From the NCBI GenBank assembly GCA_002720865.1, contig PBIO01000024.1:1-47286 (forward strand): a stretch of DNA of 47,286 bases, in the 5' to 3' direction. The stretch's first letter is position 1; each line of letters starts with the position of its first letter. Shown here piece by piece: positions 10,503-45,439 of this stretch. Source of the DNA: Halobacteriovorax sp. Its GTDB lineage: Bacteria > Bdellovibrionota > Bacteriovoracia > Bacteriovoracales > Bacteriovoracaceae. The notes under the pieces are model-generated. The model was not told the DNA's origin and did not search any database. It saw only the letters and a list, made by a program, of their open reading frames with translations. Position numbers and translations under genes: made by a program.

Positions 10503-13500
10503 ATGTCTAACTGTGCAATGGATAATGTTTTCTCGGTATCTAATGTAGACGAGATCTTTGACAGCTGGGGCTTGGCCACGCCCTTCCCTACGTCCAGCCA
10601 AACGACTGGGGGATCAACTGCAGACGACGGCACCTATGCCAGTAACGTCAATTATATGACGTGGTATGATTCAAACTCGGGTTATACAGCTCCAATTTTT
10701 GTAAATCAGTATGGTTTCTTCTTAACTATTTATAGCGGCAGTTGGGTTATAGGTTATGATTCTAATGGAGATGGCAGCGGCGTTTACGAGAACAGCCCGG
10801 TATTTAGCTCGATTTTTTATGAAGATGGCGCAAACCCCGACTCATGTCCGCACGAGGTGTTATGGACAGGCTTATCGGGAACTCCCGATAGTCTCGTTAG
10901 CTTAGTTTCTGGATCAGGATCAGCTCCAGCTCCAACGGCAACCCCAACGGCAACCCCAACCCCATCTGCAACTCCAACGCCAACTCCAACGCCGTCAGGT
11001 GGAGGTGGCGCTGCCGCCGCGAAGTCTGTTTTTGTCTCCGGTTTTGTAGCTGATTGGAATCAACCTGTCTGGTATGAGGTTGGAGCGACTTCTGGTGGAG
11101 GGTTAATCAATAACCCCAACGCCTTTTTGCCTGCTGGCACGATTACAAATCCTACTGGCTTTTCGAATAAGTGGTCGGGCATGACAGCTAGCAGCTTCAA
11201 GGCTTGGTGTGCGCCTACGTCAGCTTCGATTCAGCTCGAACACCTTGTTCATTATGGCGGGTGGGGCGGACCCTCAACCCAGTTTAGCGACGGGGTTGGC
11301 GCGGGCAATCCGTACACATCCTCTATTGATGCAGGAAGCACGATACCTTGGGATTCAGCCAATGGTTGGGCTAACTACATGCTGGACGGAGATTCCCATA
11401 GGGGCAAAGTAGGAAGTATTAATTCTGTTGATAGCCATGACGCCAACCTCCCATCCCTAACAGATTTCGGTTGGTACATGAATACCAATGGAGTCGGCAT
11501 GGAAGGTGGCAGCTCTCATGTAGGAACTAAAGTAGGAGATTTAGCCCGAGGCTTGCTTGCATTTTATACTCATGGTGGCTTTCAGTCAATCCACAAGAAT
11601 GTGGTTGATGGTTATGATAGCTCTCGAATAGATGGTCATGTGTACCATAAAAATGGGGGAGAAAGATCTGGCTCGGCAGCGGAAGGTTTAACGGCGACGT
11701 ATACAAATTGGCACCATACAGAGGGCGGCTCTCTGCAAAACATTAAGCACGAAATAGATAATAATCGAACAGTTCTTGCTTGTTTTTCCGACTGGAATAT
11801 ATTAAATGCTGTTTCAGGCTCGCTTACCCACAATCAAGAAGAGCACACAAGTGTCGAATACTATGAATTCGGAACGAATATTTCACAGCCCGCCCAACAA
11901 CAATTATGGGAAGAGCAATACAATGAGCAGTTTGATGATACGGCACTTGGTCACACCGTTGTCATTGTCGGTTATATCCCCGCTGGAGGAGCGGATGACA
12001 TAAATAAATCAATAGCGCCTACAAATTGGCTAATAGTAAGGGACAACAGTGAGTATAGCGCGAGAAATGTAGCTATACCATACGATCAGATCTTCAATGG
12101 TAGCTCGATGACGGGGTGGCAGAAACTTATTTCCACCCACTATGTCAATCCATCGCTAGGGACATATGCAGATCCCACTGCAACACCGCAGAGCTTTCTC
12201 CTGAGAGTGGATCCCGACTTATGGGGCTCTCGCTTGGCTTTGACAGCAGGCTCGAATACAGGCTCCGACGTGAGCGACATACCGAATGGTATATACACGT
12301 GGGATTCTTCAAACAATTGGTATGTCAATAGCTATGAACCCAGCAGCAAGCGGATACAAAAAATAGGCACCGACTGGGAGTTTGTAGCAAATAACACAGG
12401 GACCTCTTATGTAGGTATAGATGATAGCGCAGGGAACAATGCAGACCCATGGAGCACCTTTGTGGACTGGGGAGACAATCCTTCAGACGTCAATTATCCA
12501 AGCTATTCTGCAAACACGGTAATAAACAAACTTCAATCTTGGCAAACGCTTTGGGATTACCCCGAGCAGGAAATTATAGTTTCGGGTTCGACCCCAATTG
12601 GCGGGAAAACGTACGATGGAGTATACAGACAGGCGGGAAGAGGTAGCGCCTACGAAGATTATGGGACATTCAATGCCGGCTCTTCCCAGCCAACTTCGAG
12701 ATACGAGCAGGTCTCAGGACCAAATACTATTGGTGGAATAATTTTTGGCCAAGGCCAAAGTGTCGGCTGGGTATTAACAAGAACATTCACCAATGACGGG
12801 GGAGCCTCAGCAGACTACTTTGGAACCTATTCATCTAATACCTTGGGAGAACATCTCCCTTGGAATGCGTCGTGGACGGGAGTTACTGTTGCCAAGGCAA
12901 ATCCGTTTCTAGGATTTACGTCTCCGACGTCAACTCCGACGCCAACTCCGACACCAACTCCAACACCGACGCCAACACCGACGCCAACACCGACGCCAAC
13001 GCCTACTCCTACGCCGACCCCAACTCCGACCCCAACTCCAACTCCGACGCCGACACCAACTCCTACGCCAACCCCAACTCCTACGCCAACTTCAGCGGTA
13101 ACTACATGCTCTGTACTTTTAAGTCAGTCCACTTCCAACACTCAGCGCCTAGAGCTACACCCCCCCGGCGGATCATACCCTCTAAAGGAAATTGCATTTA
13201 CCGGAGCGTATTCCATATCAATCTGGGTTCGCCCTGATCGTTTAAACGATTGGCAGTATTTGTTTGCAGGGAACTATGGAGAGCGTCTTCAAATAAATGG
13301 GTCGGGAAAGCTTACGCTAGATGGTAATTTTGTAGCTGATAACACTTCGCCGAGTAGTGCAGACGGAATTCTTTCTGTAGGAGAAATATATCATATTGTC
13401 TTAACTAGAAATTCCTCCGACGATGTCACCCTATATGTCAATGGCGCCGTTGCTATAAATGCAGGAACCCACAATGGCAGTGACCCGAATCTTCATGGCT

Positions 13501-16500
13501 TTGGGGCATCCTTTTCAAGCGGTAATTCAGCAGGGTTCAAAGGAGCTTTTTACGAGGCGTCTGTCTGGGACTCCTCCGCACTTACGGCGGCTCAAGTGTC
13601 CGCGATATACGACTTAAGTGTGAACGGAGATATATCGTCCTACTCTCCTACTTCTTGGTGGAGGATGGGAGATACTTTGGGTGATAGCGATACTCAAATA
13701 TTAGACGCAGTAGGGCCCAACCATCTTTATGTCAATCGCCATAATCCGGCAGGTTCCGGACTGAAACAAATAGCTAATGATATCACTCCATTAATTGTTT
13801 GTCCAATTGGGGCGACTCCCACCCCCACGCCAACTCCTACCCCCACACCGACTCCGCCGCCAGTTATAGTTGTAAACCCAACCTCTTTTGCTTCAGCGAG
13901 TGGGGAGACGGTAGACTTAGGGAAATATTTCGATACAAACAGAACCATCAAGGCTTTCACGGGGGATACTGGAGATTCTTTAGTCGTCCCAGCAGGCTTT
14001 AACTTTGCTACTTTTATACCTGATACGGGTTCAATAAGGTCTGAGTACGTAAGAGAGGGGCAAACACTTACGTATGCCAGTGAAATTATTCTTGGAACAG
14101 CGGAAGAACTAAAGGGACTTCCGGTGTTTGCATATTACGACGATAATGGGCAAGACCTCAAATTTGCAAAGTGGAATCTCTCCACAAAGTCTTTCGATAC
14201 AGAAGTGCTAGATAGTGATGGGGACGATGTTGGGTATGGCCAGATTAGCTTAGCCCTTCATCCAAACAATCTCAATGGATCACTTGACTCTCCAGCGGAC
14301 GTCTTTTCAATTTCATCGTACAATTATACTCAAAAAGACTTAAACTGGCATTCGCTTTCCGAAGACTTTCGATTGGAAACAAACACTTGGGATGAATATT
14401 CCAAAGTAAGTTCGGGAGAAGTTGGCGACCATAGTGCCATATTGCCATACGACAATGGCTCAATCACCCTTTTCTACAATGACGATTCCGATCAGATTGA
14501 AGCTTATCACCACCATGGGCTAGGCGGGGATCACTTTTCAACCCATACAACTCAAATCGTCGCTGCGGGGATCGGCGCGTCAGGCTTTGATTCTGCTGGT
14601 AGACTTGGTTTTGGCGCGGCGGTAATAGGGGGAATTCCTGCAGTTGCATTCGGCAGGAGAGTAGCAGGGACATCAAGAGAAGAACTTTGGTATACTATTT
14701 TTGACTCAAACACTAATCTATGGAAAGACCCGATTCAGCTTGACGACAACCAAGGCTCAAACGGATTTGCTTATATTTCTCTTATTGATCTAGGCGGGAA
14801 GCCTGCGATGGCCTATCACGACTGGGACAATACCAGTTTGGAGTATATAGAGTATACTGGTTTAGAGCAAGCTGGTTATGATTCCTCCGACTGGACTCAA
14901 GAGAGAATTGACTATGGAGAGCCTACAAACTATGGCGACTGGAAGTGGGTTGGACCTTCTTGTTCTTTGGTGAACTTGAATGGGATGCCTGCGGTCGCGT
15001 ATTCTAATTTTACTGACGGAGTCGTACTCTATCAAGAAAAGACCGCCGCAGGTTGGCCGGGCTATGGAGAAGAGGTTGCGACCAGCAATATGAAGTGGCG
15101 ATATACTGGCTACAGAAATATATGCTTAAGGATTATTGACAATTGCCCATCCATTGGGTTTGGCGCCTGTGATTCGCCAGACTCCACTGGGACAGCGTCA
15201 AGCACTTTGAGATATGCATTTAAGTCGGCCGGGGAATGGACTATTGTTGATGTAGACTCTTCTAATTCTGGAAAAAACATTACGCTTTTTGATTTCCCAA
15301 CCGCATTAAGCCAGAAAGATCTTTACTCTTGGTGGAGATTTAATGAAGCAGATGGGGCTACTGTAGCCCTAGACTCTTCCGGTAATGGCAACAATCTGGC
15401 AGTAGAGAGTTCTGCTAGTCGAGAATCAGGTCGATCCGGCAATTCCTTAGCGGTTGGTGGTGAGTCGGATCAATCCATAGCGAGATCAACATTTGACTTA
15501 TTCCCACTAGATGAAGGTAATCCTGCTCCAGATTTCTCTTTGTTAATTCGGTTTAAATTTAATCCTTCTGCAGTTAATGCAGTAGAGCAGTTATTTGACA
15601 ATGGGATTTTCAATATTAGATTATCTTACGGCTGGTCCAATCCTCAACTTAACTATATTAGCTTTAGGCTTGTTGAGTCTGGGAACGGCTTGAGCCTTAC
15701 GGACACGAGAGTCTCCTTATTTACAGCTGGAACGCCTCCTTATGACCACATCCCGCATAGTTTGAGTTCTGGTGCTTGGAGGCAATTTGTCATCACGGGT
15801 AAAGCGCATGGCTCCGGTGCGCTATACAATAGTTATCTTGATGGGCACGATACTGGCGGCGGCTATCTTCCGAACTGGGCTACGAGCAATTCTCTTGGGG
15901 ATAAGAAGTGGTCTTTCGGGGAGAAGCCAAACCCTCCTCGTCAAATCAAAACTTTTTCTGGTGAAATAGATGACGTTCGCCTATACAATAGGGCGCTCTT
16001 CCCCAGTGAGATTAATGCTATCTTTGACGGCGACACAGACGCATCCCCTGCCCCTGCGGAAATTCCTTTTTCTCCAATTCCAACCCCGACACCAACCCCT
16101 ACCCCGGGATCTACTCCGACCCCAACCCCAACTCCAACACCAACACCGACTCCTACCCCAACACCTCCTCCCGTAAGCTTTGGCGCAGATCTTTTGTCTT
16201 ATCTCAAGTTTGAAGATGCTTCAAACATAGGGCAAGACTCTAGCTTATTATCTACAAACAATCTAGACGTATCTAACGCTTCTTCTGGTGTTGGAGTCTT
16301 TGGCAAATCGATTAAATTCAACGGAATAAATACAGTCGCGGAAGCAGACTGGGACCTCTTCAACACCTTGCCCACGGCCTATTCTTATTGCTTCTGGATT
16401 AAGAGTGGCGCCATCCCTTCTGGAGGGCGCAAGGCAGACACAGATTTATTTAACTGGAATGGAATTAAATTGCACTCTAATAGTGGAGGCACGCTTACCG

Positions 16501-19500
16501 CCACTCATCCTGCCGAAGATTTTATTCCCTCAGGAGGTTGGATAAACTTGTCTGGCTATACCGGTACGTCGTCCTTACTTCATAAAGCGATGGGAAATTG
16601 GGAGCGAACAGGGTCCCAAATAAATGGAAAAAATACTTATTATAGACCAAGTTCGACTCACGCCGACTACTATGAGCTTATGTTTTACCATTCAGGGACT
16701 GCACGATGGACGGTAATACTTTATGAAAGAGATTATCTAAGAACGAGCATGCCGCCCGGGTCAAATTACTCCTTCGGTCCCGGCGCGACTGCCACCCACG
16801 CATTTCCTTATACTAATTATGGAGGCCAGACAATGACGTGGTTTGGCGGAATAACGGTTGTGCCAAATTACGTCCCTAGTGCAGGAGCGACAAGCGTTAC
16901 AGTCACAGGCAACCATCTACAATCGGATGGGGGAAGCTACAACCTCAGCGGTTTATGGGCGCATGTTGCAGTAGTATGGGACGGGTCTAAATTAAATCTT
17001 TACAAAGACGGGCGCATTAAAGGTTTTGCAGACGCTCCAAACATCAATGCGAGCATTCTTAATAGCGCTAGAGCCTACCTTGGAGGAGCCCCCAATTCAG
17101 GCACTGAGCCATGCATTAATGGTGCTATTTCTGACTTTAGATTCTACAATAAAGCACTATCCAGCTCAGAGCTTATTAATATAGTAGAGGGTGATCGGGA
17201 TGAGCCTGTCGTTAGCACTGCAGTTCCTCATAATAAAGCCGTAGTAGATACAATTAACATAGACTTTGATAATGTAGACCAGCCTACCCTTTCCAATATG
17301 GATGGGGTATGGTACGATGCCGGAGAGTTCAACGGAAGGCCCTATTACAAAAGGCTTGACGTGCAGGGCCCCCAATACACGGATAAAGAATTCTTAAGTT
17401 ATTACAAGGGCAAATGGGGATTCAGGACATCTTTAGATGAAGAGGTGCAGGGCGTATTTAGAGAGCCGGGTAATAGTCGCACAGAAGTAGGCAGAGGAGA
17501 CCTAACCCCACTTCAATTAGAGTGGGAGGGTCAGAGCGATCCAGTAATAACCTTAGGAGGCTCAGCGCCTCACCCCTCAGGAGCTAATAACCTTGTAAAT
17601 CAAAATGTAACAGGTTCAGCTTCAGTTGGTCGTCCGGTATTTGACGAGTCGGGTAATTCGTATTTTGTCGACGGCGATGGAAAGGTCCAAAAGATTGACT
17701 CAACCGGGGCGACAACAACACTAGCCACTCTTTCTGGATCATTTGGCTCTACAGCTACTGCGTTCACTCCTTTGTTAGTAGGGGGGAATTTATATATTCC
17801 AGTCAACGATGAGAGTGGAACTCCGAATTCAGTAACCTTATCTAAAATAAATAACTCTACTGCTAATCAAGTATTGTCAGTGTTAGACCTGACAAAATCT
17901 GGAGTTGACTCTGAGTTTGGAGGAATGACACTTAATTCGTCAAAAAGCTCAGTTCTTGTATCGGTACCCAATGCGGATGGGGATATAGAAATAAAGTCTG
18001 TAAACTTAAATTCTTTTCAGTTGGATAGCAATTTCGGAACGGCTGGGGTATCCACCTTATCAAGTGTTGATCTAGGTCTTGGCTCTGGGACTGGAATCGG
18101 CCCTATTATAGATCCATCAGGCAATACTTGGATGGTTGCTAGGAACGCGGGAGGAGATTATGAGGTTGTAACTCTAGACCCCTTGGGGAACGTCATCTCT
18201 CCCAACATTACCATCGATTCATCCTCGACATTTGGCAATTCCCCTACAGACCCAAGGCTTACTATCGACCCAGCCTTAGAAACACTTTATTTAGTAACCC
18301 GAGATGGCGATCCAAAGGACACCCTCAGCGCTTACGATATAAACACAAAGACCTTAAATTGGAAACGAGATTTCGGCGTCGGAGAGCAGGTTATAGGCTC
18401 TCCCGCAGTATCCACTTCCGGCCCCGACGCAGGGACAGTGTATATCGCGCTAGATACTGGGGAGCTTATAGGTATTAACCAAAATACTGGACTTAATAAA
18501 TTTGGCCCCGCAGATCTTGGTAGTGCCGCCAGCACATCCCCAACGGTTGACTCTTCAGGGGCTGTATATGTCAGCAATTCTTCAGGGCAATTAAGCAAGT
18601 TCCCATCAGATCTTTCAACTGACACTTGGGCGGATAAAGGGCATTCATTCCCGTCGGGAGTTACAGGTCTTGCAGTTATAGGGTCGAAAATAGGATTTGG
18701 ATCTGGCAATAATTTTGTATCAATCGGATCTAATGATCCCACCATCAATACCAGCTTCCCCAGTATAGCTAATCGAACAGATTTATCTGGAACAACGTTT
18801 GGAGGGGTGGTATTTAGCTCTATTCCGCCTGCGGGCAAAGGGTTTAAATATACTGCTACGATAGCAGGAGTGACCTATAATGTCAAAGAGCTCGCGGACG
18901 GCAGGTTAGAATTTTTCAATGATTCTGGAGAGAAAATCTATACGGGATCCTACAATTCCTTAACTGGCAAGTTAGATCTTTCGCCTACTCCTGTTGGCTC
19001 AGGACTCGGTCTCACCCCAATTCAAGAATCTAGAACAGCGGGCAAAATAAGAAAATTTAAAAAAACTTATACAAATTTATTAAAAAACGGAAAGTTCTCT
19101 ACTTTTAGAACGCATAGAGGAGTTCGTTCGCTCTTGGATGTTGGGGATGAAGCTACTTTGGAGCTAGGGGATGGCCCCAGCAAAATCTCCATAGGTATCC
19201 TGCAGTTGCCTACGGAGTTACAATTGGACTCGCTAGGGGCAGTGGGAGGCCCATATTCACTGGAGTCCATAGGAGACAAGGCATCCTTCAATTATAAAGA
19301 CTACAAATACGAGTTGGAATACGTTGAAGAAGGGTCTGTGGTTATTGATGTTTCAGTATTCCTGTCTGAGCTGCCCCCGGTATACCTTACTACAAAAAAT
19401 GAGGGTGGAGACTATTGGGAAGAAAGTATTTCTGACACGCTTTCCGCGAAGAGAGATGGTGCGCTTTTCGTTCATAATGGCTTGTTTGTTACAGGGGAAG

Positions 19501-19742
19501 CCGAAGAGCTATACAATCTTTCTGAGTTTGTTACTGGCGCCACTAAAACGCTGGAAGATCATACTTCTGAACTATCTACGATTGCAACTTCTCCCGCCCT
19601 AATCCCTCCTACCATGAATACTGCAGAAATGCATAACATAAGCCCAGCGCAAGATGGGATGTTGATTTTCAATACGGAGTCAGGGAAGTTTGCTGGATAT
19701 TCAAGCTCAGACGGCGGCTGGAATACGTTTGACTGGAAATAA
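10503..19742 (+). CDS. Giant multidomain adhesin with C39-like peptidase, LamG and propeller domains
   Basis: At 3079 residues this is the largest gene. Residues about 215-560 look like a papain-fold C39-like peptidase: Cys236 in WCAPTSAS, His484 in GHTVVIVGY and Asp514-Asn515 in VRDNSEY. (TP)n linkers lie near 140-165, 808-863, 1105-1120 and 1858-1890. LamG-like domains sit near 870-1070, 1605-1850 and 1893-2235, and a propeller-like region near 1150-1600 repeats [25 protein letters not shown]-like beta-propeller ([25 protein letters not shown]) spans about 2370-2780. The C-terminus ([25 protein letters not shown]) is a fibre-type cap. I infer a long host-binding fibre with a peptidase domain; substrate unknown. 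No signal peptide is seen. Confidence 0.75.
12927..13092 (+). repeat. (Thr-Pro)n-coding hexanucleotide tandem repeat
   Basis: About 165 bp of degenerate ACN-CCN hexamers encode one long Thr-Pro run in the giant adhesin. Shorter runs lie near 3640-3686, 10926-10998, 13815-13858 and 16078-16172. Synonymous third bases vary, so the peptide is conserved more tightly than the DNA. The 6-bp unit allows in-frame length change without gene loss. Confidence 0.85.
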
Positions 19743-20365: not shown

Positions 20366-22282
20366 ATGCGAAAAAAAAGACTTCTTTTTCACTCCAACCA
20401 CAGTAAGGTTTTTACTGGGTTCGGGAAGAATGCCAGAAATATTCTAAGGCATTTATTTAAGACCGGAAAGTATGAGATCATCGAAGCTGGCAATGGCTTT
20501 GCTTACGGAGATCAAGGCTTGGAAGATATGCCATGGGAGACTATTGGAACGCTTCCAAGTAACCCTGCGAAGGTCGCGCAAATAAACAAAGACCCCGGAC
20601 TCGCGAAGAGGGCGGCGTATGGAGGGGAAATGATTGATCAGATCGTAAAAGAGGTAAAACCTGACATTTATCTTGGGGCGGAAGATATCTGGGCCTTTGA
20701 TGGGTATTGGGAGAGGAAGTGGTGGAACAAGCTTAGCTGTATAGTCTGGACAACGCTGGACAGCTTACCTATTCTACCAATGGCGGTCAATTCTGCGCCA
20801 AAGATTAAACATTTCTATACGTGGGCCTCGTTTGCGTCTGACGAGCTCAATAAATTAGGGCATAGTCATGTAGATACTTTACATGGGTGCATAGAAACAT
20901 CTTATTTTTCGAAACTGAAAAAAAATGAGAGGTTAGAACTTCGAAATAAATTTAAATTATCAGAAAATAAATTTATTATTGGATTTGTATTCAGGAATCA
21001 ACTAAGAAAAAGCGTACCTAATTTACTGGAAGGCTTTAGTAGTTTCATCAAACTTGAGCCCGACTCTGAAGCAGCGCTTCTCCTACACACCCATTGGGCA
21101 GAGGGGTGGGATATAGCAAGACTCTTAAAGGACTACAATATACCGAACGAGAGAGTTTTGACAACCTATTTCTGCTCTAAGTGCAGACAATATGAAGTCA
21201 AACCCTTTGAAGGTCAGGAAAAGGACTGCCCTTACTGTAATACAAAAAAAAGCCAACAGACTACAAATGTAAAGGGTGGCGTCTCCGAGTCTCAGCTCAA
21301 TGAGATTTACAATCTAATGGACGTCTATTGCCACCCATTTACCTCTGGCGGCCAAGAGATACCAATTCAAGAAGCTAAGCTCTGTGAGTTAATTACTCTT
21401 GTCACAGATTATAGCTGTGGGACTGATTGCACTGGACCGGATTCAGGGGGTTTCGCCTTGGACTGGAGCCCCTATAGAGAGCCGGGCACTCAATTCGTCA
21501 AAGCGACAACGAATGCAGAGAGCATTTGCGACAATTTATCAAGGGTTTACAACATGCCCCCTAATGAGAGGGAGGCCTTAGGAGTTCAGGCTCGGAATTT
21601 TGTTTTAGAAAATTACGATGTGGGGGTAATAGGGAAAAAGTTAGAGGACATTTTAGACAAGCTCCCTTTTTGCGATTGGGATTTTAACTTCACAGAAAAA
21701 AAGAGAAACCCCGAATATGTTCCTCCGGACACCAAGGACGATTCGGAATGGATCTGCGACTTATATAAGAACATATTAAATGCAGATGTTGATCAAAGCG
21801 ACGATGGGTACAAGTACTGGATGTCCCAGATTAAAGCAGGGAAAACGCGAGATAGCATCTTGGGGTATTTTAGACAGGTCGCGCTAAAAGAGAACCAAGA
21901 GAGCTTTGACAAAAAGGAGCTAAAGGATTTTCTAGATGAGGACGATGAAGGGAAAAGGATTGCATTTATTCTGCCGGAGAGCGCGGGAGACGTTTTTATG
22001 TCTACAGCCTTACTTGGGAGGATTAAAAAACTTTATCCAGAGTATAATATTTATTTTTTTACCAAGCCTGCCTTCCGAGGACTACTTGATGGCAATCCCC
22101 ACATACATAAAGTGATTCCCTATTTTGAGGCGTGCGAGCAACTTTTGTTTCTTGAGGGAGCGGGCGACCATAAAGGTTTTTTTGAGGTGGCGTACCTACC
22201 TCACATAGGAACGCAGAGGCAGTTAAACTACCTGCATAATGCTAAAGACAAAATAGAGCTAGACTTAGAATGCACATCATAG
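20366..22282 (+). CDS. GT4-like glycosyltransferase fused to the N-terminal half of a GT9-like enzyme
   Basis: 638 residues. Residues 1-440 have a GT-B glycosyltransferase layout: FHSNHSKVFTGFGKNARNIL at the N-terminus, and in the C-lobe a group-1-type block VYCHPFTSGGQEIPIQEAKLC. A CxxC...CxxC pair (CSKC, CPYC near residues 271-292) suggests an inserted zinc ribbon. After a linker, residues about 530-638 (IAFILPESAGDVFMSTALLGRIKKLYP...NPHIHKVIPY) match the first Rossmann half of ADP-heptose:LPS heptosyltransferases (GT9). The protein ends there, and the matching second half is encoded by the next ORF, overlapping by 13 nt in the -1 frame. Likely acts on a surface glycan in the cytosol. Confidence 0.7.
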   Translation: MRKKRLLFHSNHSKVFTGFGKNARNILRHLFKTGKYEIIEAGNGFAYGDQGLEDMPWETIGTLPSNPAKVAQINKDPGLAKRAAYGGEMIDQIVKEVKPDIYLGAEDIWAFDGYWERKWWNKLSCIVWTTLDSLPILPMAVNSAPKIKHFYTWASFASDELNKLGHSHVDTLHGCIETSYFSKLKKNERLELRNKFKLSENKFIIGFVFRNQLRKSVPNLLEGFSSFIKLEPDSEAALLLHTHWAEGWDIARLLKDYNIPNERVLTTYFCSKCRQYEVKPFEGQEKDCPYCNTKKSQQTTNVKGGVSESQLNEIYNLMDVYCHPFTSGGQEIPIQEAKLCELITLVTDYSCGTDCTGPDSGGFALDWSPYREPGTQFVKATTNAESICDNLSRVYNMPPNEREALGVQARNFVLENYDVGVIGKKLEDILDKLPFCDWDFNFTEKKRNPEYVPPDTKDDSEWICDLYKNILNADVDQSDDGYKYWMSQIKAGKTRDSILGYFRQVALKENQESFDKKELKDFLDEDDEGKRIAFILPESAGDVFMSTALLGRIKKLYPEYNIYFFTKPAFRGLLDGNPHIHKVIPYFEACEQLLFLEGAGDHKGFFEVAYLPHIGTQRQLNYLHNAKDKIELDLECTS

Positions 22283-23433
22283 AACAGTACGCACTAAGCT
22301 GTGGGCTGAAAATTGGCGAACCCCACATTGAACCTCTATTTTTCCCCCTTCCTATGGAGAAGTTTATAACAATTCATAATGGTTCTAAATTCGATTCAAG
22401 AAATTATGACTACTTCAACGAGGTTGCTTCCATAATTAGTCCATTTCTCAAGTCGGCAGGCATCTCAATTGTGCAAGTTGGAGTGGCCGAAGACCCACTA
22501 ATCCCTCTCGCTTATGACGTCAGGGGCAAGACAAGCCTCAAGCAGCTTGCGTACTTGATCTCCAAGAGTGTTTTGCTTTTAGGGATAGATAGCTTCCCGC
22601 TACATTTGGCTGGGTTTTTCAAGATCCCCTTTGTTGGGTTATATTCAAACATGTACAAAGAGCACTCAGTCCCCTATTGGAGAGATGAATCCAATAGCGT
22701 TTTACTAGAGAGTCATCGAAATGGGCTCAAGCCGAGCTACTCTTCCAAAGAAGATCCCAAGACTATTAACATGATAAATCCAGACACGATTTCTTGTAGG
22801 GCTCTAGATTTATTAGGTATTAATCACAATTTGGATTCAGTAGACAGCTTTCATTTTGGTGATAAATTCCATACCACAGAGATAGAGGTAATCCCAAACT
22901 TCCCCCCAAACGTGCACTTCTTGCACTCCAACGTCACACTCCGAATGGACTTAGGAGGTGGCGTGGAGAATCTTTTACGGTGGGCGTCGGCATGCGAGTT
23001 GAATATTGTGACAGACAAGGCTTTGGATATTAATTGCGTTCGGCAGATCCTGCCAAAGCTCAGGCGCGTGACGATCCTTCTGGGGGATAGCTCTATAGAC
23101 TTAGATTACATTAAAAGCTTAGAGATGTTGGGGGTAGATTTTCTACTGCAAACTACAGATGAAGAGATGTTATCCGCCTATCGAGTGGAGTTTTTCGACT
23201 GGAGGGTATCCCTTATTAATGATTTTTCAAAGAATTGTATTGACAATGCGGCAAAAATATGCGAAGATACTTTTTTCAAAACTTCAAAAGTAATTTTTTC
23301 CAATGGAGACAAGTACGCAAGTGAGTATCATGAAAAAGAAAACATACCTATCTCTCCAGATAATATGCGCATCGTCGAAGATGACTTGTTCTGGAAGTGG
23401 GCTAATTACTATAAACTCTACAACGTAGCATAA
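22270..23433 (+). CDS. C-terminal half of GT9-like heptosyltransferase plus unknown domain
   Basis: 387 residues. Residues 30-190 contain ITIHNGSKFDSRNYDYF, VQVGVAEDP, LKQLAYLISKSVLLLGIDSFPLHLAGFFKIPFVGLY, the nucleotide-sugar-binding half of GT9 enzymes (normally preceded by an acceptor lobe in the same chain, here encoded by the upstream ORF). Residues 200-387 form an unrecognised domain with repeated beta-alpha pattern. The frame is closed by a stop at 22243-22245 just upstream, so reinitiation at ATG 22270 or a -1 shift within 22246-22282 are the only ways to make it; I see no classic slippery heptamer. Confidence 0.65.
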   Translation: MHIIEQYALSCGLKIGEPHIEPLFFPLPMEKFITIHNGSKFDSRNYDYFNEVASIISPFLKSAGISIVQVGVAEDPLIPLAYDVRGKTSLKQLAYLISKSVLLLGIDSFPLHLAGFFKIPFVGLYSNMYKEHSVPYWRDESNSVLLESHRNGLKPSYSSKEDPKTINMINPDTISCRALDLLGINHNLDSVDSFHFGDKFHTTEIEVIPNFPPNVHFLHSNVTLRMDLGGGVENLLRWASACELNIVTDKALDINCVRQILPKLRRVTILLGDSSIDLDYIKSLEMLGVDFLLQTTDEEMLSAYRVEFFDWRVSLINDFSKNCIDNAAKICEDTFFKTSKVIFSNGDKYASEYHEKENIPISPDNMRIVEDDLFWKWANYYKLYNVA

Positions 23434-24760: not shown

Positions 24761-24789
24761 TTGACTTGTTTTTAAATCTGTTGTATATT
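24761..24789 (+). promoter_or_regulatory. Sigma70-type promoter giving a near-leaderless mRNA
   Basis: TTGACT (24761-24766) and TATATT (24784-24789) with a 17-nt spacer. The expected start near 24796 leaves at most a few bases before ATG 24799, so the mRNA should have essentially no leader and no Shine-Dalgarno. Confidence 0.7.
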
Positions 24790-24798
24790 ATACGGACA

Positions 24799-25362
24799 AT
24801 GACGAATATTATCAAGAAAGAGCATCCAGAGCTCCTCAAAAAAACAAGAACTTACCTTGTCGGCCATATGCAGTATGTGAGTGGCCGTGACTGGAGAGAC
24901 TATGTAACAGAGAGATTCAACAAGATAGGCATCACCGTCTTTAATCCGTATGAAAAACCTTTTGTCAAAGATGTGGAAGAAGGGCAGGCGATAAGAAAAG
25001 AGCTTCTAGATATGATGGAAAAAGGCTACTATGGAGAGGTGGTAAAGCGCATGAAGACAGTTCGTGCGTATGACTTAAACCTTGTCGATAGGTCTGATTT
25101 CATTGTCGCCCATCTTGTCCCAGAGGTTGCAAGCTGGGGAAGTGCAGAAGAAATTGTAACTGCAGTGAGGATGAAGAAACCTATTTTCGTTTCAATGGAG
25201 GGCGGAAAGGCTAAGACTCCGCTTTGGATGATGGCCATGTTCCCCCATAAATACATTTACGATTCAGTCGAGGAGATTGTAGACATGATCGAAGCGATTG
25301 ACTCGGGAGACAAAGAAATCGACAGTGATCGCTGGCGACTTTTAAAACCAGAATACAGATAA
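24799..25362 (+). CDS. Nucleoside 2-deoxyribosyltransferase-like protein
   Basis: 187 residues from ATG 24799. An in-frame TTG at 24766 lies inside the promoter, so the ATG is preferred. The pattern TYLVGHMQYV...GITVFNPYEKPF...VRAYDLNLVDRSDFIVAHLVPEVASWGSAEEIVTAV matches the nucleoside 2-deoxyribosyltransferase-like fold: an N-terminal Tyr/Gly loop, an Asp near the nucleoside pocket and a Gly-Ser-x-x-Glu motif that would supply the catalytic Glu. Such enzymes move or hydrolyse deoxyribose on nucleosides or nucleotides, so a role in nucleotide salvage during infection is plausible. Substrate is unknown. Confidence 0.65.
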   Translation: MTNIIKKEHPELLKKTRTYLVGHMQYVSGRDWRDYVTERFNKIGITVFNPYEKPFVKDVEEGQAIRKELLDMMEKGYYGEVVKRMKTVRAYDLNLVDRSDFIVAHLVPEVASWGSAEEIVTAVRMKKPIFVSMEGGKAKTPLWMMAMFPHKYIYDSVEEIVDMIEAIDSGDKEIDSDRWRLLKPEYR

Positions 25363-27801: not shown

Positions 27802-28845
27802 ATGTATGGATTAATAGGTGTTAGTGAGATACTGTTGGAGCAAGATGCTTCCAATGTTTTTGAAGGTTTAACGCGAAGGGCTTTTGACGAGTTGAGCAGC
27901 GAGGGGGGCGAAGCCGAGGCTCTCGCTAAGCTTGAGGAGGTAATTAATCACAATCTAGATTTAACTCAAAAGACCATTTCTCATTGCGCTGAGATGGGGA
28001 TTGTGAATTATCGTTTAAGCAACTCGATCTTTTCTTTAGCTTCTGACCCTAGTGTCAATGTTTCCTTCTCGGACTTGCCGGGGCACGGATCAATCACAGA
28101 CAAAATAAAGGAGATAGGAAGGGGCGCGAAGTCTGCGGGGATTTCTCTATCGATTCATCCAGATGGCTTCAATTCCCTAGGTTCAGAGGCGGACGAGATA
28201 GCTGAAAAGACGATTAAAGAGTTAAATTTTCACGCATGGTTCCTAGACTCCTTAGGGGCGCAGCAAAACCTTTCCTCCCCCATATGTATAGAAGTAGGCG
28301 AGCAGATTGCGGGGCACGATGAGGGGGAATATTATCATGATGAGTTTGTGGAGTTCGTAGATAGGTTTGTATCTCGCTTTAAAAGCTTAGATAAGGGTGC
28401 ACAGAGAAGGTTGGCGCTGGATTGCGACGATCAGGGTACTTGGAATTGCTATCGTTTGTTTAAATATTTTCATGTATATTGCCTTGAAGAGCACAACCAT
28501 GGCTTTGCCCTAGTTTATGATAACCTGCATGACAAACTAAACCCTTCAGAGCTCGTCGATAAAAAGCTAGAACAACATATTAACATTGGAGCTTTCCACG
28601 AGACTTGGGGAGGGGTTATACCTTTATTTCGGTGGAGTGAGGGGATTGCGGGGAGCGCAAAGCATGCAGATTACCTTTCTGGCCCGATCCCTGTCTTTGA
28701 TTACCAAATCAAATGGGAATGCGATGTAAGGAAGGGCGACCTAGCCATTGCTCGCCTGATGGAACCAGAGGCAGAGGATAAGCTTACTGAAGAAGAGCTT
28801 CGCAAACTCACCAGAGAGCGTTATAACGCAATATATGACGTGTAA
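27802..28845 (+). CDS. uvsE: UV damage endonuclease (UvsE/UVDE family)
   Basis: 347 residues, in the normal size range. The TIM-barrel pattern is clear: NYRLSNSIFSLAS near residue 70, ISLSIHPDGFNSL near 114, FHAWFLDSLG near 148, SPICIEVGEQIAG, LALDCDDQGTWNCYRLFKYF and GFALVYDNLHDKLNP, matching the metal-binding strands of UVDE. The family nicks DNA 5' of cyclobutane dimers and 6-4 products without a glycosylase step, starting excision repair; for a sunlit-water phage this would protect its genome. Its own promoter lies at 27766. The 3' end overlaps the next gene by 11 nt. Confidence 0.75.
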   Translation: MYGLIGVSEILLEQDASNVFEGLTRRAFDELSSEGGEAEALAKLEEVINHNLDLTQKTISHCAEMGIVNYRLSNSIFSLASDPSVNVSFSDLPGHGSITDKIKEIGRGAKSAGISLSIHPDGFNSLGSEADEIAEKTIKELNFHAWFLDSLGAQQNLSSPICIEVGEQIAGHDEGEYYHDEFVEFVDRFVSRFKSLDKGAQRRLALDCDDQGTWNCYRLFKYFHVYCLEEHNHGFALVYDNLHDKLNPSELVDKKLEQHINIGAFHETWGGVIPLFRWSEGIAGSAKHADYLSGPIPVFDYQIKWECDVRKGDLAIARLMEPEAEDKLTEEELRKLTRERYNAIYDV

Positions 28846-30320: not shown

Positions 30321-30739
30321 GGGGGTGTTCTGGATTCGACTGATGTTGGATTCTTGCACTGCAAGTCGGAGATGCACTTGGCTTCGTTACAAATGTGCAA
30401 AGCTTTACATGGCGCTAAAAACCGTGTTAGAGCTCTCGGTTTCAAGAACCGTCTCGCTGCAAAGCGTTTCGGCTTCAAGAGCCGTAAGCTCGCCTTGGCA
30501 GCTTAACCTGTCAACCTCTTACCCTTTGACGCAGATAAGGGGGATAAGGGGTCATCTATCTGCAAAAACAGAAAAGGTTTACCTGTTAATAAACTGTAGT
30601 CCTCTGCGTAGCGGGGGCAAATAATTGAAACGGGAAGTTGGATGTTAATGTCATAACTATAAAAAAAATTAACTAAACTTGTAGGCGTGCTTGCTTGAAG
30701 GCACTCAGGACGCGGGTTCAACTCCCGCCACCTCCACCA
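30321..30739 (+). ncRNA. ssrA: tmRNA (SsrA) with expanded basic peptide tag
   Basis: The 5' end GGGGGTG and 3' end CACCTCC-ACCA pair as a 7-bp acceptor stem with a G3-U70 pair, the alanine identity signal. The T arm reads GCGGGTTCAACTCCCGC, CCA is encoded, and the 5' part has TCTGGATTCGAC. A short pseudoknot (TGCAC/GTGCA with GCTT/AAGC) precedes the tag frame 30411-30506, which ends LALAA-stop. TA at -5/-4 favours resumption at GGC 30411, giving a 31-residue tag with 5 Lys, 5 Arg and no acidic residue. The reading region holds two tandem hairpins with identical TCAAG loops (CGGTT/AACCG; CGGCT/AGCCG). Length 419 nt. It sits between two small genes on the same strand. Confidence 0.92.
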
Positions 30740-31407: not shown

Positions 31408-31806
31408 TTGAGCGATGGCCCAGAGCTAACCCATGTTTTTGGGAGTGTTTCTAATTTAGACGAAACGGCTTTCGATCAGGATTTGTTTTACAACAATCTG
31501 TGTCGCGATTTATGCGATGCGCTGAGTCTCAATATCCTAGAAATTAAAAAACATTCGTTCGAGCCTTGTGGATTTACACTTTTAGCCTTACTAGAGGAGT
31601 CTCACATGAGTTTTCACACTTGGCCGGAGCACAAGTGCGTGTTTTTTGATTTATTTACTTGCTCTCGCTTAAATATAGGAGTACTGTCGACTCTTATTCG
31701 CAGTAGGTATCACGAGGTTTATCCAGACGCGGTAGTTAAACTTCAAGGTTTTGATAGATCTTTTAATGGGCTAAGTGGAGAAAAATTTAGATCCAGTGAG
31801 TATTGA
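31408..31806 (+). CDS. speD: S-adenosylmethionine decarboxylase proenzyme-like (SpeD)
   Basis: 132 residues from TTG 31408, 3 nt after the previous gene; no ATG is available before the conserved core. The core LLEESHMSFHTWPEHKCVFFDLFTCS matches class 1B SpeD. Autocleavage should occur between Glu64 and Ser65, Ser65 becoming the pyruvoyl group; His70 and Cys85 stand at the expected +5 and +20 spacing from the serine. It makes the aminopropyl donor for spermidine synthesis. Relatives of SpeD are known that decarboxylate ornithine or arginine instead, so substrate is not certain. It overlaps the SpeE-like gene downstream. Confidence 0.8.
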   Translation: MSDGPELTHVFGSVSNLDETAFDQDLFYNNLCRDLCDALSLNILEIKKHSFEPCGFTLLALLEESHMSFHTWPEHKCVFFDLFTCSRLNIGVLSTLIRSRYHEVYPDAVVKLQGFDRSFNGLSGEKFRSSEY

Positions 31807-32614
31807 TAGACCTACATCATTCTATTCGTCTTGGTGCGGAGATTCCTCAAGTGGGCGGGGCAGCCAAGCGATTATACCCCTAGACTGGAATATCGAGGCT
31901 AGAGAGCAAATTGTTTTTGAGGCCAAAACCAAGCTTGGCCAGACGGTTCAAGTGATAGAAGATATCCTAGGCGATAGAACTCTACATCTCAACGGAGATG
32001 ATTTTCAAATTTGCATGCATTCCGATGGGAGTGAGTACTACTATGGAGATGATTCAAACTATGACTATATTAAGATCCTAAACTTTCTTAAGCTTCGCGA
32101 GGATGGTTTTAGTCGCTTGCGTATTTTAATCATTGGGGGCGGGGACTTAGGTTTATGTCAACTCTTAATGGATCATGGAGTCAGGCAGATAACTATTTTT
32201 GAATTAGATAGAGAGCTCCATGAGATTTTCATCAAATGGTTTCCGAGATTCAAAAAGTCCCCCCTTGAGTCGGATGGTGTTCGAATTGAATTTGGAGATG
32301 GCTTCGAAAGGCTAGCTCTTTGCGAAGATGATTCATTTGACGTCATCATAGGGGACTTGCCTGACTATGGAGCTTCTCAATTTAGCGATACCAGTGTTTC
32401 TGAAGACTTAATAAGAGTCTGTCGCTCGGATGGGGCTGTGCTTACGCATTGGGCTAATGGAGATTTTGATTTCAACTCTGCGTATGCAAGTTTTCACGCT
32501 AAAAGCGCTCCCTTGCTTGTGGTAATGCAGGGAGAGTCGGAAGGTGTTGGTGCTTTTGTCTGGTCTCCCAAGCCTCTAGGCGGTATAAATTATGCGCCAG
32601 CAAAAAAAATATGA
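31775..32614 (+). CDS. speE: Spermidine synthase-like aminopropyltransferase
   Basis: 279 residues from GTG 31775 (32-nt overlap with speD) or 272 from GTG 31796 (11-nt overlap); the second is more compact. SpeE signatures: LIIGGGDLGLCQLL (glycine-rich SAM-type loop), IFELDRELHEI with the ribose-binding acidic residue, FGDGFERL, and IIGDLPDYG, where the Asp pair corresponds to the catalytic D-x-x-D of aminopropyltransferases. The N-terminal 40 residues differ from typical enzymes. Coupled to speD, so together they could convert putrescine to spermidine or a related polyamine. Acceptor is inferred. Confidence 0.65.
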   Translation: MEKNLDPVSIDRPTSFYSSWCGDSSSGRGSQAIIPLDWNIEAREQIVFEAKTKLGQTVQVIEDILGDRTLHLNGDDFQICMHSDGSEYYYGDDSNYDYIKILNFLKLREDGFSRLRILIIGGGDLGLCQLLMDHGVRQITIFELDRELHEIFIKWFPRFKKSPLESDGVRIEFGDGFERLALCEDDSFDVIIGDLPDYGASQFSDTSVSEDLIRVCRSDGAVLTHWANGDFDFNSAYASFHAKSAPLLVVMQGESEGVGAFVWSPKPLGGINYAPAKKI

Positions 32615-37516: not shown

Positions 37517-38167
37517 ATGCCCATATTCCATGATACTAAATCTATATTCGTCCACATTACCAAATGCGGAGGGACCAGCGTAGAAGAAGTTCTCTTTCCT
37601 GAATCGAAAAGGACTGAAGAAAACTTATGGATGGGCATTTGCAATACCCCCGGTGACCCCCTTTTTTTTAGAAATAAATACGGAGAGACCGGGGGCCTAC
37701 AACATCTTTCGGCGAAATCTATTAGGCGAGCCGTCGGGGAAGAGGTTTTCAACAATTATTTTAAATTTACATTTGTAAGGAACCCCTACGACAGGGCGGT
37801 TTCCCAGTTTTTTTACACAAAAAAAAGAGGAGATCTAGCGGATTGGCTGGGTCTTTCGGGAGATTTTTCTTTCTTGGAATACTTAAACTCTTTGCTCAAT
37901 TCGCCAATGCATGTCCAATTCCAACCTCAATGTGATTTTCTTTTTGAGGGGCCCAATCTTTTGGTTGATTTTGTCGGTAAGCTAGAAAGCTTTCAGGAAG
38001 ACTTTGATTTTGTTTGCACAATGATTGGCAATTCGAACGAGAGACTTCCTCATGTCAATAGATCGCGGAGATCTCATTATAGAGACTTATATTCCTGCCT
38101 AGATGAGAAACAAATAGTAGATAAACTATATAAAGTGGACTTAGAATTTTTTAAATACAGGTTTTAG
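37517..38167 (+). CDS. Sulfotransferase family protein (1)
   Basis: 216 residues. The PAPS-binding 5'-phosphosulfate loop reads ITKCGGTS (residues 14-21), where typical family-2 enzymes have (I/V)PKxGGTS; the 3'-phosphate motif is FVRNPYDRAVSQFF (86-99), the canonical R-x(7)-S. Relatives transfer sulfate from PAPS to carbohydrates. No PAPS-making gene is visible in the window, so the donor would come from the host. It lies 1-2 nt from flanking genes, directly before the GT92/GT34-like fusion, suggesting the two modify the same glycan. Confidence 0.75.
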   Translation: MPIFHDTKSIFVHITKCGGTSVEEVLFPESKRTEENLWMGICNTPGDPLFFRNKYGETGGLQHLSAKSIRRAVGEEVFNNYFKFTFVRNPYDRAVSQFFYTKKRGDLADWLGLSGDFSFLEYLNSLLNSPMHVQFQPQCDFLFEGPNLLVDFVGKLESFQEDFDFVCTMIGNSNERLPHVNRSRRSHYRDLYSCLDEKQIVDKLYKVDLEFFKYRF

Positions 38168-44288: not shown

Positions 44289-44870
44289 ATGATAAGCCAT
44301 AAACATAAATGTATATTTATTCACATTCCTAAAACTGCAGGAACCAGTTTTTCAGAATCCCTTGATCTAAAAAAAATAAATCGCTATACACATAACTCTT
44401 TTGACACTATTAGGAATTTTCTTTTTGACAACGGGTTTAATACTGATGATTATTTTTCTTTTGCTTTAGTGCGTAATCCTTGGGATAAAATAGTGTCCGA
44501 ATATTTTTGGTTTACTAACGCTTCTCATCCTTACCCCCATCAGTCTGTAAAAGATTTTTATGCAGGCACGTCCTTTAAATCTTTTGTTTTAAAGTTTTTT
44601 TCTTGCAATGTGGGAGATCCATATCATAAGCTTTCTTATTTAGATATTTTAAATCCAATTTCTAAAGTAGATTTTATTGGCAAGTTTGAGAACGTAGAAA
44701 AAGATTTCAACTTCATTTGTAAAAAATTAGGCGTAAGCACCCCTCTCGCACATGAATACAAAACAAAACATAAACACTACACCGAATACTACGATGATGA
44801 AGCCCGTGAAATAGTTGCGGAAAAATACGCAAAAGACATTGAGTATTTCGGTTATGAATTTGGAGGGTAA
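44289..44870 (+). CDS. Sulfotransferase family protein (2)
   Basis: 193 residues. 5'-PSB loop IPKTAGTS (13-20) and 3'-PB motif VRNPWDKIVSEYF (61-73) are canonical. The final 33 residues (HKHYTEYYDDEAREIVAEKY...) are shared nearly identically with sulfotransferase (3) at both protein and DNA level. The gene is much more AT-rich than the fibre genes. Likely sulfates a carbohydrate with host PAPS. It lies 5 nt after the small-peptide gene and 2 nt before the next. Confidence 0.75.
   Translation: MISHKHKCIFIHIPKTAGTSFSESLDLKKINRYTHNSFDTIRNFLFDNGFNTDDYFSFALVRNPWDKIVSEYFWFTNASHPYPHQSVKDFYAGTSFKSFVLKFFSCNVGDPYHKLSYLDILNPISKVDFIGKFENVEKDFNFICKKLGVSTPLAHEYKTKHKHYTEYYDDEAREIVAEKYAKDIEYFGYEFGG
44766..44848 (+). 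repeat. Shared 83-bp C-terminal segment, copy 1
   Basis: 44766-44848 matches 45335-45417 with one visible difference (C versus T at 44778/45347) over 83 bp, while the rest of the two sulfotransferase genes has diverged strongly. It encodes HKHYTEYYDDEAREIVAEKY and the following residues. Confidence 0.85.
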
Positions 44871-44872
44871 AA

Positions 44873-45439
44873 ATGATAGTCTCACACAAACATAAATTTA
44901 TATATCTTGCGACTAGTAAAACTGGTACAACGAGTTTTCAAAAGAAATTCGGTAAGTATAATGAATGCAAACTTAAAAAACATAGTACCCTTAGTATGTT
45001 AAACTTTGATTATTGTGATTATTTTATTTTTTGTTTTGTAAGAAATCCGTGGGACAGACTTGTATCAGGTTACATGCAGTGCCAAAAGCCACTAAACTTA
45101 AAAGATTCTTATAGAAAGTATATTTATAAACTCTCAAATAGTCATCCGTTTAGTGACTTTCTCAAGATTGCAGACGATAACTTCTGGGAAGATTTCGATC
45201 AGAGTCGGTTTTATTTAAATAAAGGTAAGTTAATTGACTTTGTGGGTAGGTTTGAAAACTTATCCTCTGAAGTAAAGATAGTTTGCAATAAACTAAATAT
45301 TGAATACGTGAATTTACCTCATAAAAACAAAAGCAAACATAAACACTATACCGAATACTACGATGATGAAGCCCGTGAAATAGTTGCGGAAAAATACGCA
45401 AAAGACATTGAGTATTTTGGATATAAATTTGGTGAGTAA
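44873..45439 (+). CDS. Sulfotransferase family protein (3)
   Basis: 188 residues. The phosphosulfate loop is ATSKTGTTSF (13-22), with Lys and the TGTTS core but Ser replacing the usual Pro; the 3'-PB motif is FVRNPWDRLVSGYM (55-68). It shares its C-terminal segment with the preceding paralogue. A tandem pair plus the 37517 enzyme gives three sulfotransferases in 8 kb. Its end is 13 nt before the GT92 gene start. Substrate unknown. Confidence 0.7.
   Translation: MIVSHKHKFIYLATSKTGTTSFQKKFGKYNECKLKKHSTLSMLNFDYCDYFIFCFVRNPWDRLVSGYMQCQKPLNLKDSYRKYIYKLSNSHPFSDFLKIADDNFWEDFDQSRFYLNKGKLIDFVGRFENLSSEVKIVCNKLNIEYVNLPHKNKSKHKHYTEYYDDEAREIVAEKYAKDIEYFGYKFGE
45335..45417 (+). repeat. Shared 83-bp C-terminal segment, copy 2
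   Basis: See copy 1 at 44766. The 569-bp offset equals one gene length, as expected for tandem paralogues with a homogenised 3' end. Confidence 0.85.

Follow-up and report, generated by a model that had tools for sequence, protein, structure and literature searches.

A phage-borne tmRNA gene with a long basic tag and its counterparts of opposite charge in related phages

The tags of transfer-messenger RNA (tmRNA, the product of ssrA) are generally regarded as short degrons in which the C-terminal end is what mainly counts. The commonest tag length among 97,179 curated tmRNAs is 10 residues (PMC11915505). Phages are known to carry ssrA genes (PMC4131195), which have been found in 402 of 18,146 phage genomes (PMC9004378); described cases include mycobacteriophages such as Bxz1, Bacillus phage G, Streptomyces phages and the marine phage Melnitz. 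Here we describe a likewise phage-borne ssrA gene on contig PBIO01000024.1 of the 4.9-Mb bacterial assembly GCA_002720865.1 (Halobacteriovorax sp.). The contig (C24) was analysed over its whole length of 47,286 bp, hereafter the window, and its proteins are either phage-like or without known identity. The tag encoded by this gene is long, unlike the short tags of the Streptomyces phages, and the RNA has a one-piece form, unlike the two-piece tmRNA of Melnitz. We found no description in the open-access literature of selected tag classes of opposite charge, or of tag exchange. Our reading, to which we assign a probability of roughly 0.5, is that the gene encodes a working phage tmRNA, one that would rely on the SmpB and proteases of the host and whose tag has two parts, a degron end and a body that may alter host proteolytic handling.

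The tmRNA gene and its tag reading frame

The Rfam covariance model for tmRNA, RF00023, matches positions 30321-30739 of the forward strand over its full length (model positions 1-374), with 127.8 bits against a gathering score of 47 (E=9e-50). ARAGORN, run on the window, did not report this gene. The acceptor stem comprises seven base pairs (GGGGGUG/CACCUCC), including G3-U70 (30323/30733), and is accompanied by a T arm and an encoded CCA; the complete tRNA-like domain described in a first-pass annotation, made from the letters of the window alone, is thus seen both in the sequence and in the alignment to the covariance model. This alanine tRNA-like domain is invariant across 15 relatives. 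Pseudoknots PK1 and PK2 align in the model, and the PK3-PK4 region aligns poorly, with many positions unpaired. The tag frame starts at the resume codon GGC (30411), which is preceded by UACAU and therefore fits the resume-codon rule at U-5 and A-4. The gene resembles the standard one-piece tmRNA in its G3-U70/CCA tRNA-like domain, the U-A before the resume codon, a pseudoknotted body as far as PK1 and PK2 show it, and the hydrophobic -AA end of its tag.

Translation of the frame at 30411-30506 yields a tag of 31 residues, GAKNRVRALGFKNRLAAKRFGFKSRKLALAA, with a net charge of +10, followed by TAA. As had been noted at first pass, it holds ten Lys/Arg and no acidic residue. Its C-terminal end, LALAA, is hydrophobic and of the LAA type, and the peptide stretch expected from tagging in the predicted frame is ...(A)GAKNRVRALGFKNR... 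In contrast, the 27 tags collected from tmRNAs of the host and of its relatives span 8-16 residues, with net charges from -2 to 0.

The same tmRNA gene occurs in virus contigs, several of them from marine metagenomes (80 of 156 relatives were kept in the sample). Their basic tags comprise ten distinct sequences of 31 residues and one of 32, all ending in LALAA. The ratio of nonsynonymous to synonymous polymorphism (pN/pS) across the 10 basic 31-residue sequences is 0.23 in the tag frame, compared with 1.27 and 1.54 in the other frames, and the variable columns fall 9/7/21 of 31 by codon position (p=4e-4). The tag stop lies in the same place in the basic-tag relatives, as TAA or TAG (also TGA in the acidic-tag relatives described below), and insertions and deletions among the relatives preserve the frame. 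Low pN/pS, third-position variation and a fixed stop site together indicate that the whole peptide is under purifying selection and that the long frame is really used. This bears out the tag of about 31 residues proposed at first pass and rules out the alternative raised with it, a resume codon far downstream that would leave only a short tag.

Selection along the peptide also bears on whether the phage tmRNA only adds rescue capacity, its long tag being the product of tolerated drift or duplication and its role being limited to the C-terminal residues. The degron end is indeed the most constant part of the tags, and phage tmRNAs with ordinary tags exist, for example in Streptomyces phages (PMC9004378). 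However, both long classes, basic and acidic, keep a pN/pS of ~0.2 over the entire tag, and the same long tag recurs in phages of many independent metagenomes, and we consider this the least probable of the alternatives weighed here.

Origin, exchange and diversity of the tags

The 20-residue tags of relatives (GNKNRVKAFGLKAKKLALAA and GNKSRVKAFAFKKRELALAA) align with the window tag with a single gap of exactly 11 codons, corresponding to window residues 10-20 (nt 30438-30470). When the window tag was aligned with itself, its score was matched by 3 of 1000 codon shuffles. Both results support the internal duplication, with the C-terminal degron retained, that had been deduced from the window. 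The accompanying claim that the mRNA-like segment was doubled was overstated, as the duplication added 33 nt to a tag of ~60 nt and the mRNA-like region was not doubled.

In other phages of the group, an unrelated acidic tag occupies the same slot: GEGYDSIEELLEAAREEYDNLVQFEQAEELEMVA, with variants of 34-41 residues, net charges from -9 to -11 and ends in MVA or MAA. Six sequences of this class give a pN/pS of 0.22 in the tag frame versus >1.2 in the other frames. The two classes meet in a pair of phages, L059 (basic) and L060 (acidic), which are sisters in the marker-protein tree with support of 100/99 (the marker gene is listed in Table 1; its relatives in virus contigs share 66-73% identity). 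Their genomes are largely collinear, with ~88% identity over 100 kb, and the flanks on both sides of the tmRNA are 86% identical. Within the tmRNA, identity collapses only in a stretch beginning at about nt 50-75 and ending at nt 260, which holds PK1, the tag and PK2. Judging from these sequences, what separates the two phages at this locus is a precise exchange within the tmRNA that runs roughly from PK1 to PK2. A chimeric assembly is unlikely, since each tag class is found in several metagenomes and L059 and L060 do not stem from the same one.

Exchange is not confined to this pair. The window tmRNA is 93-94% identical to those of L070 and L063, whereas the marker gene is only 73-75% identical in the same comparison, over ~200 bases. 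A tmRNA similarity so far above that of the marker gene indicates that the tmRNA gene itself travels between phages. On the marker tree, which is weakly resolved, 12 changes of tag class are needed, where 2 would be the minimum.

The acidic alleles also decide one of the first proposals, namely that a basic tag might target rescued proteins to RNA or DNA. Opposite charges in the same slot, including in a sister phage with 86-88% identity, exclude a common nucleic-acid target as a group-wide function.

The exchanged segment takes in PK1 and PK2 and not the tag alone, as would be expected if the RNA were the selected unit and its exchange served to evade a host factor or nuclease recognising the tmRNA, with the tag differences hitchhiking. 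The tandem TCAAG hairpins reported at first pass do exist in the window but are kept imperfectly: 92% of cells are paired in the relatives, and in 4 of 10 sequences hairpin 1 has lost one pair. Most of the pairing in the duplicated hairpins persists, and hairpin 2 shows a few two-sided changes, as selection on the RNA would predict; the breaks in hairpin 1 and, within each class, a conserved amino-acid frame with free third positions speak against it, and this explanation appears quite improbable to us. RNA hairpins as the main constraint were likewise rejected in favour of coding.

The search retrieved 50 distinct tags, of 14-41 residues and with net charges from -11 to +11. One of them, GFIGSAKTQPAIAA (L067/L069), belongs to a different lineage of tmRNA. 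Of the 50, 43 terminate in LAA, MAA or VAA, and 6 more in VA. AlphaFold2 predicts one helix per tag, covering residues 3-30 of the basic tag (predicted local distance difference test, pLDDT, 78) and residues 7-33 of the acidic tag (pLDDT 88), and the tag body is probably helical in both long classes. Pfam returned no match for either the basic tag or the acidic tag of 34 residues, and the PDB none for the basic tag; the PDB matches of the acidic tag are mainly designed helical repeats, as for a generic helix. No copy of the tag sequences was found elsewhere in the same genomes beyond the tmRNA itself.

These properties invite the view that the body has a peptide function of its own: as a helical module for interaction or targeting, it would direct rescued proteins to a partner, nucleic acids in the first-pass proposal, and would not tune degradation. 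Amino acids are conserved over the whole length inside each class, and the sequences are strongly charged and predicted to be strongly helical. We nevertheless hold this view to be unlikely: basic and acidic bodies share the slot in sister phages, which leaves no single group-wide partner, the similarity to Pfam families or solved structures does not go beyond generic helices, the degron end is retained, and no phage gene tracks tag class across eight genomes. The idea of a cognate adaptor exchanged along with the tag was rejected on that same comparison of four basic-tag and four acidic-tag genomes, some of them partial, in which no gene clearly follows the class; a 60-residue protein (at ~28.1 kb of G059) is present in three of the four basic-tag genomes and in none of the four acidic ones.

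Further tags were observed outside the two main long classes. Those of L104 and L165, ANSDIDMEFAPSLAEADEILAKFGYVEEEELQLAA and AKDAVDMAPSVAEADAILAQFGYQEAAMAA, look mutually related, as a third long class, and L133 has its own basic tag of 38 residues. The different virus tmRNA with the tag GFIGSAKTQPAIAA, in L067 and at 10411-10987 of L069, apparently contains a group I intron near its 3' end.

Host tmRNA and genomic surroundings

The chromosomal ssrA gene of the same assembly (contig C14) encodes the tag ANNDFAPAMAA, and comparison with it shows that the window tag is not that of the host. No resemblance of the tag body to this host tag is visible. The window tag is carried by one of 369 genomes of the same phylum, namely the window's own, and among 291 genomes only the window itself shows full-length similarity to the window tmRNA, which sets aside the concern, voiced at first pass, that many hosts might have the same tag. 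The host encodes one SmpB. A search of 16 phage records, many of them fragments, found no SmpB, so that absence is no proof.

The window has a GC content of 42.9%, compared with 35-39% in sampled chromosomal stretches, and the bacterium with which it was binned may or may not be the host of its phage. In L059, DUF1549/DUF1553 and DUF1501 genes (12918-16225) lie directly downstream of the phage tmRNA; we take these families to be typical of planctomycete-type bacteria, and their position is a hint of a Planctomycetes/Verrucomicrobia-type host.

Two further tmRNA loci were observed in the assembly. A 3'-end fragment at G000:C14:1065259-1065313, away from the chromosomal ssrA, is of the kind that integration of an element at ssrA usually leaves behind. 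A third tmRNA, with the tag ANNNDNFEYALAA, lies on contig C25 (L195, 2933-4521), 15 nt upstream of a tubulin/FtsZ-like gene and with PhoH-PIN and PrkA genes nearby; C25 is possibly another large phage or element.

Table 1. Coordinates of the tmRNA gene, its parts and the phage-group marker in the window
Feature	Position	Strand	Basis
Phage-encoded tmRNA (ssrA) gene	30321..30739	+	RF00023; ~90-94% identical tmRNAs in L059, L063, L070
5' acceptor strand GGGGGUG of the tRNA-like domain, G3 at 30323	30321..30327	+	Sequence, covariance model alignment
Segment exchanged as a unit (PK1, tag, PK2), approximate	30369..30560	+	L059/L060 windowed identity, genome alignment; mapped via tmRNA alignment
Tag reading frame, 31 codons, resume codon GGC: GAKNRVRALGFKNRLAAKRFGFKSRKLALAA	30411..30503	+	Translation; pN/pS 0.21-0.23, other frames >1.2
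Inserted, duplicated 33-nt (11-codon) block GFKNRLAAKRF	30438..30470	+	Tag alignment; codon-shuffle self-alignment
Second block GFKSRKLALAA, C-terminal degron-like end	30471..30503	+	Tag alignment
TAA, tag stop codon	30504..30506	+	Translation, relatives
T arm, 3' acceptor strand CACCUCC (U70 at 30733), discriminator A, encoded CCA	30713..30739	+	Sequence, covariance model alignment, relatives
Nucleoside 2-deoxyribosyltransferase-like gene, phage-group marker	24766..25362	+	PF15891, E 3e-6, below curated cut-off

Other genes of the window are listed here as observations in their own right. Just downstream of the tmRNA, at 31408-32614, S-adenosylmethionine decarboxylase and spermidine/spermine synthase-like genes are adjacent and form a possible phage polyamine pathway. 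Three genes (37517-38167, 44289-44870 and 44873-45439) match the sulfotransferase-type phage family phrog_3347, and two glycosyltransferases are encoded at 20366-23433. A UV-endonuclease UvdE-like gene (27802-28845) has counterparts of 82% identity in L059 and L060, both marine phages. A single open reading frame of 3,079 residues spans 10503-19742; it has only two weak phage matches, themselves of unknown function.

Possible roles of the tag body

The sequences themselves show the gene and its tag frame, the selection acting on the peptide, the duplication and the swap, and also that the host has a tmRNA and an SmpB of its own. On the reading of a working phage tmRNA with a two-part tag, the RNA would in addition be expressed and charged, would use the SmpB, ribosomes and proteases of the infected cell, and would rescue ribosomes stalled during infection. 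The ends of ssrA tags are established to engage ClpX. The first part of the phage tag, its nearly constant hydrophobic end (LAA, MAA or VA), would accordingly be readable by a host protease, most likely ClpXP. The second part would be the long helical body, selected as a peptide, which may have originated at ~20 residues and grown by duplication or replacement into the basic class of 31 residues, the acidic class of 34-41 residues and others. These classes would then be swapped among phages by recombination inside the gene. The most likely role of this body would be to alter host proteolytic handling of tagged proteins. It may no longer bind an adaptor by which the host recognises its own short tag; alternatively, it may provide a better initiation segment for ClpX or another protease. 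Shared length, a predicted helix and divergence from the host tag would fit altered protease recognition or initiation, or a lost adaptor site.

Several points weigh against this reading. We infer transcription, charging and tagging by the phage tmRNA from sequence, and an adaptor-escape or initiation role of the body by analogy. A long Lys/Arg-rich tag should be slow to translate, which is odd for a rescue tag. The helix predictions, made for peptides of 31-34 residues, carry little weight. In the acidic class, with 6 sequences, the codon-position test alone is not significant (p=0.14), and selection is weaker in the short tag classes, with pN/pS of 0.34 and 0.53.

The tag of Mesoplasma florum ssrA is read by the bacterium's own Lon protease, and tag sequence can thus set protease choice (PMC9097571). 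That tag is bacterial, whereas the phage tags keep LAA, MAA or VA ends and a ClpP-like protein is encoded in only 2 of 18 phage records, many of which are fragments. More tentatively, and somewhat short of an even chance, the phage tags could be interchangeable modules, each joining a constant degron to a selected body, with charge-opposite alleles that recombine, and trans-translation could be rerouted in a phage-specific way as to protease, adaptor or fate.

Taken at this strength, the data suggest a role for the tag beyond that of the usual short degradation signal. The roughly 50 natural phage tags allow testing of what a phage gains from its own trans-translation, and the same set provides a way to ask what the tag upstream of LAA does. 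As ready-made tags, they may be orthogonal to host adaptors.
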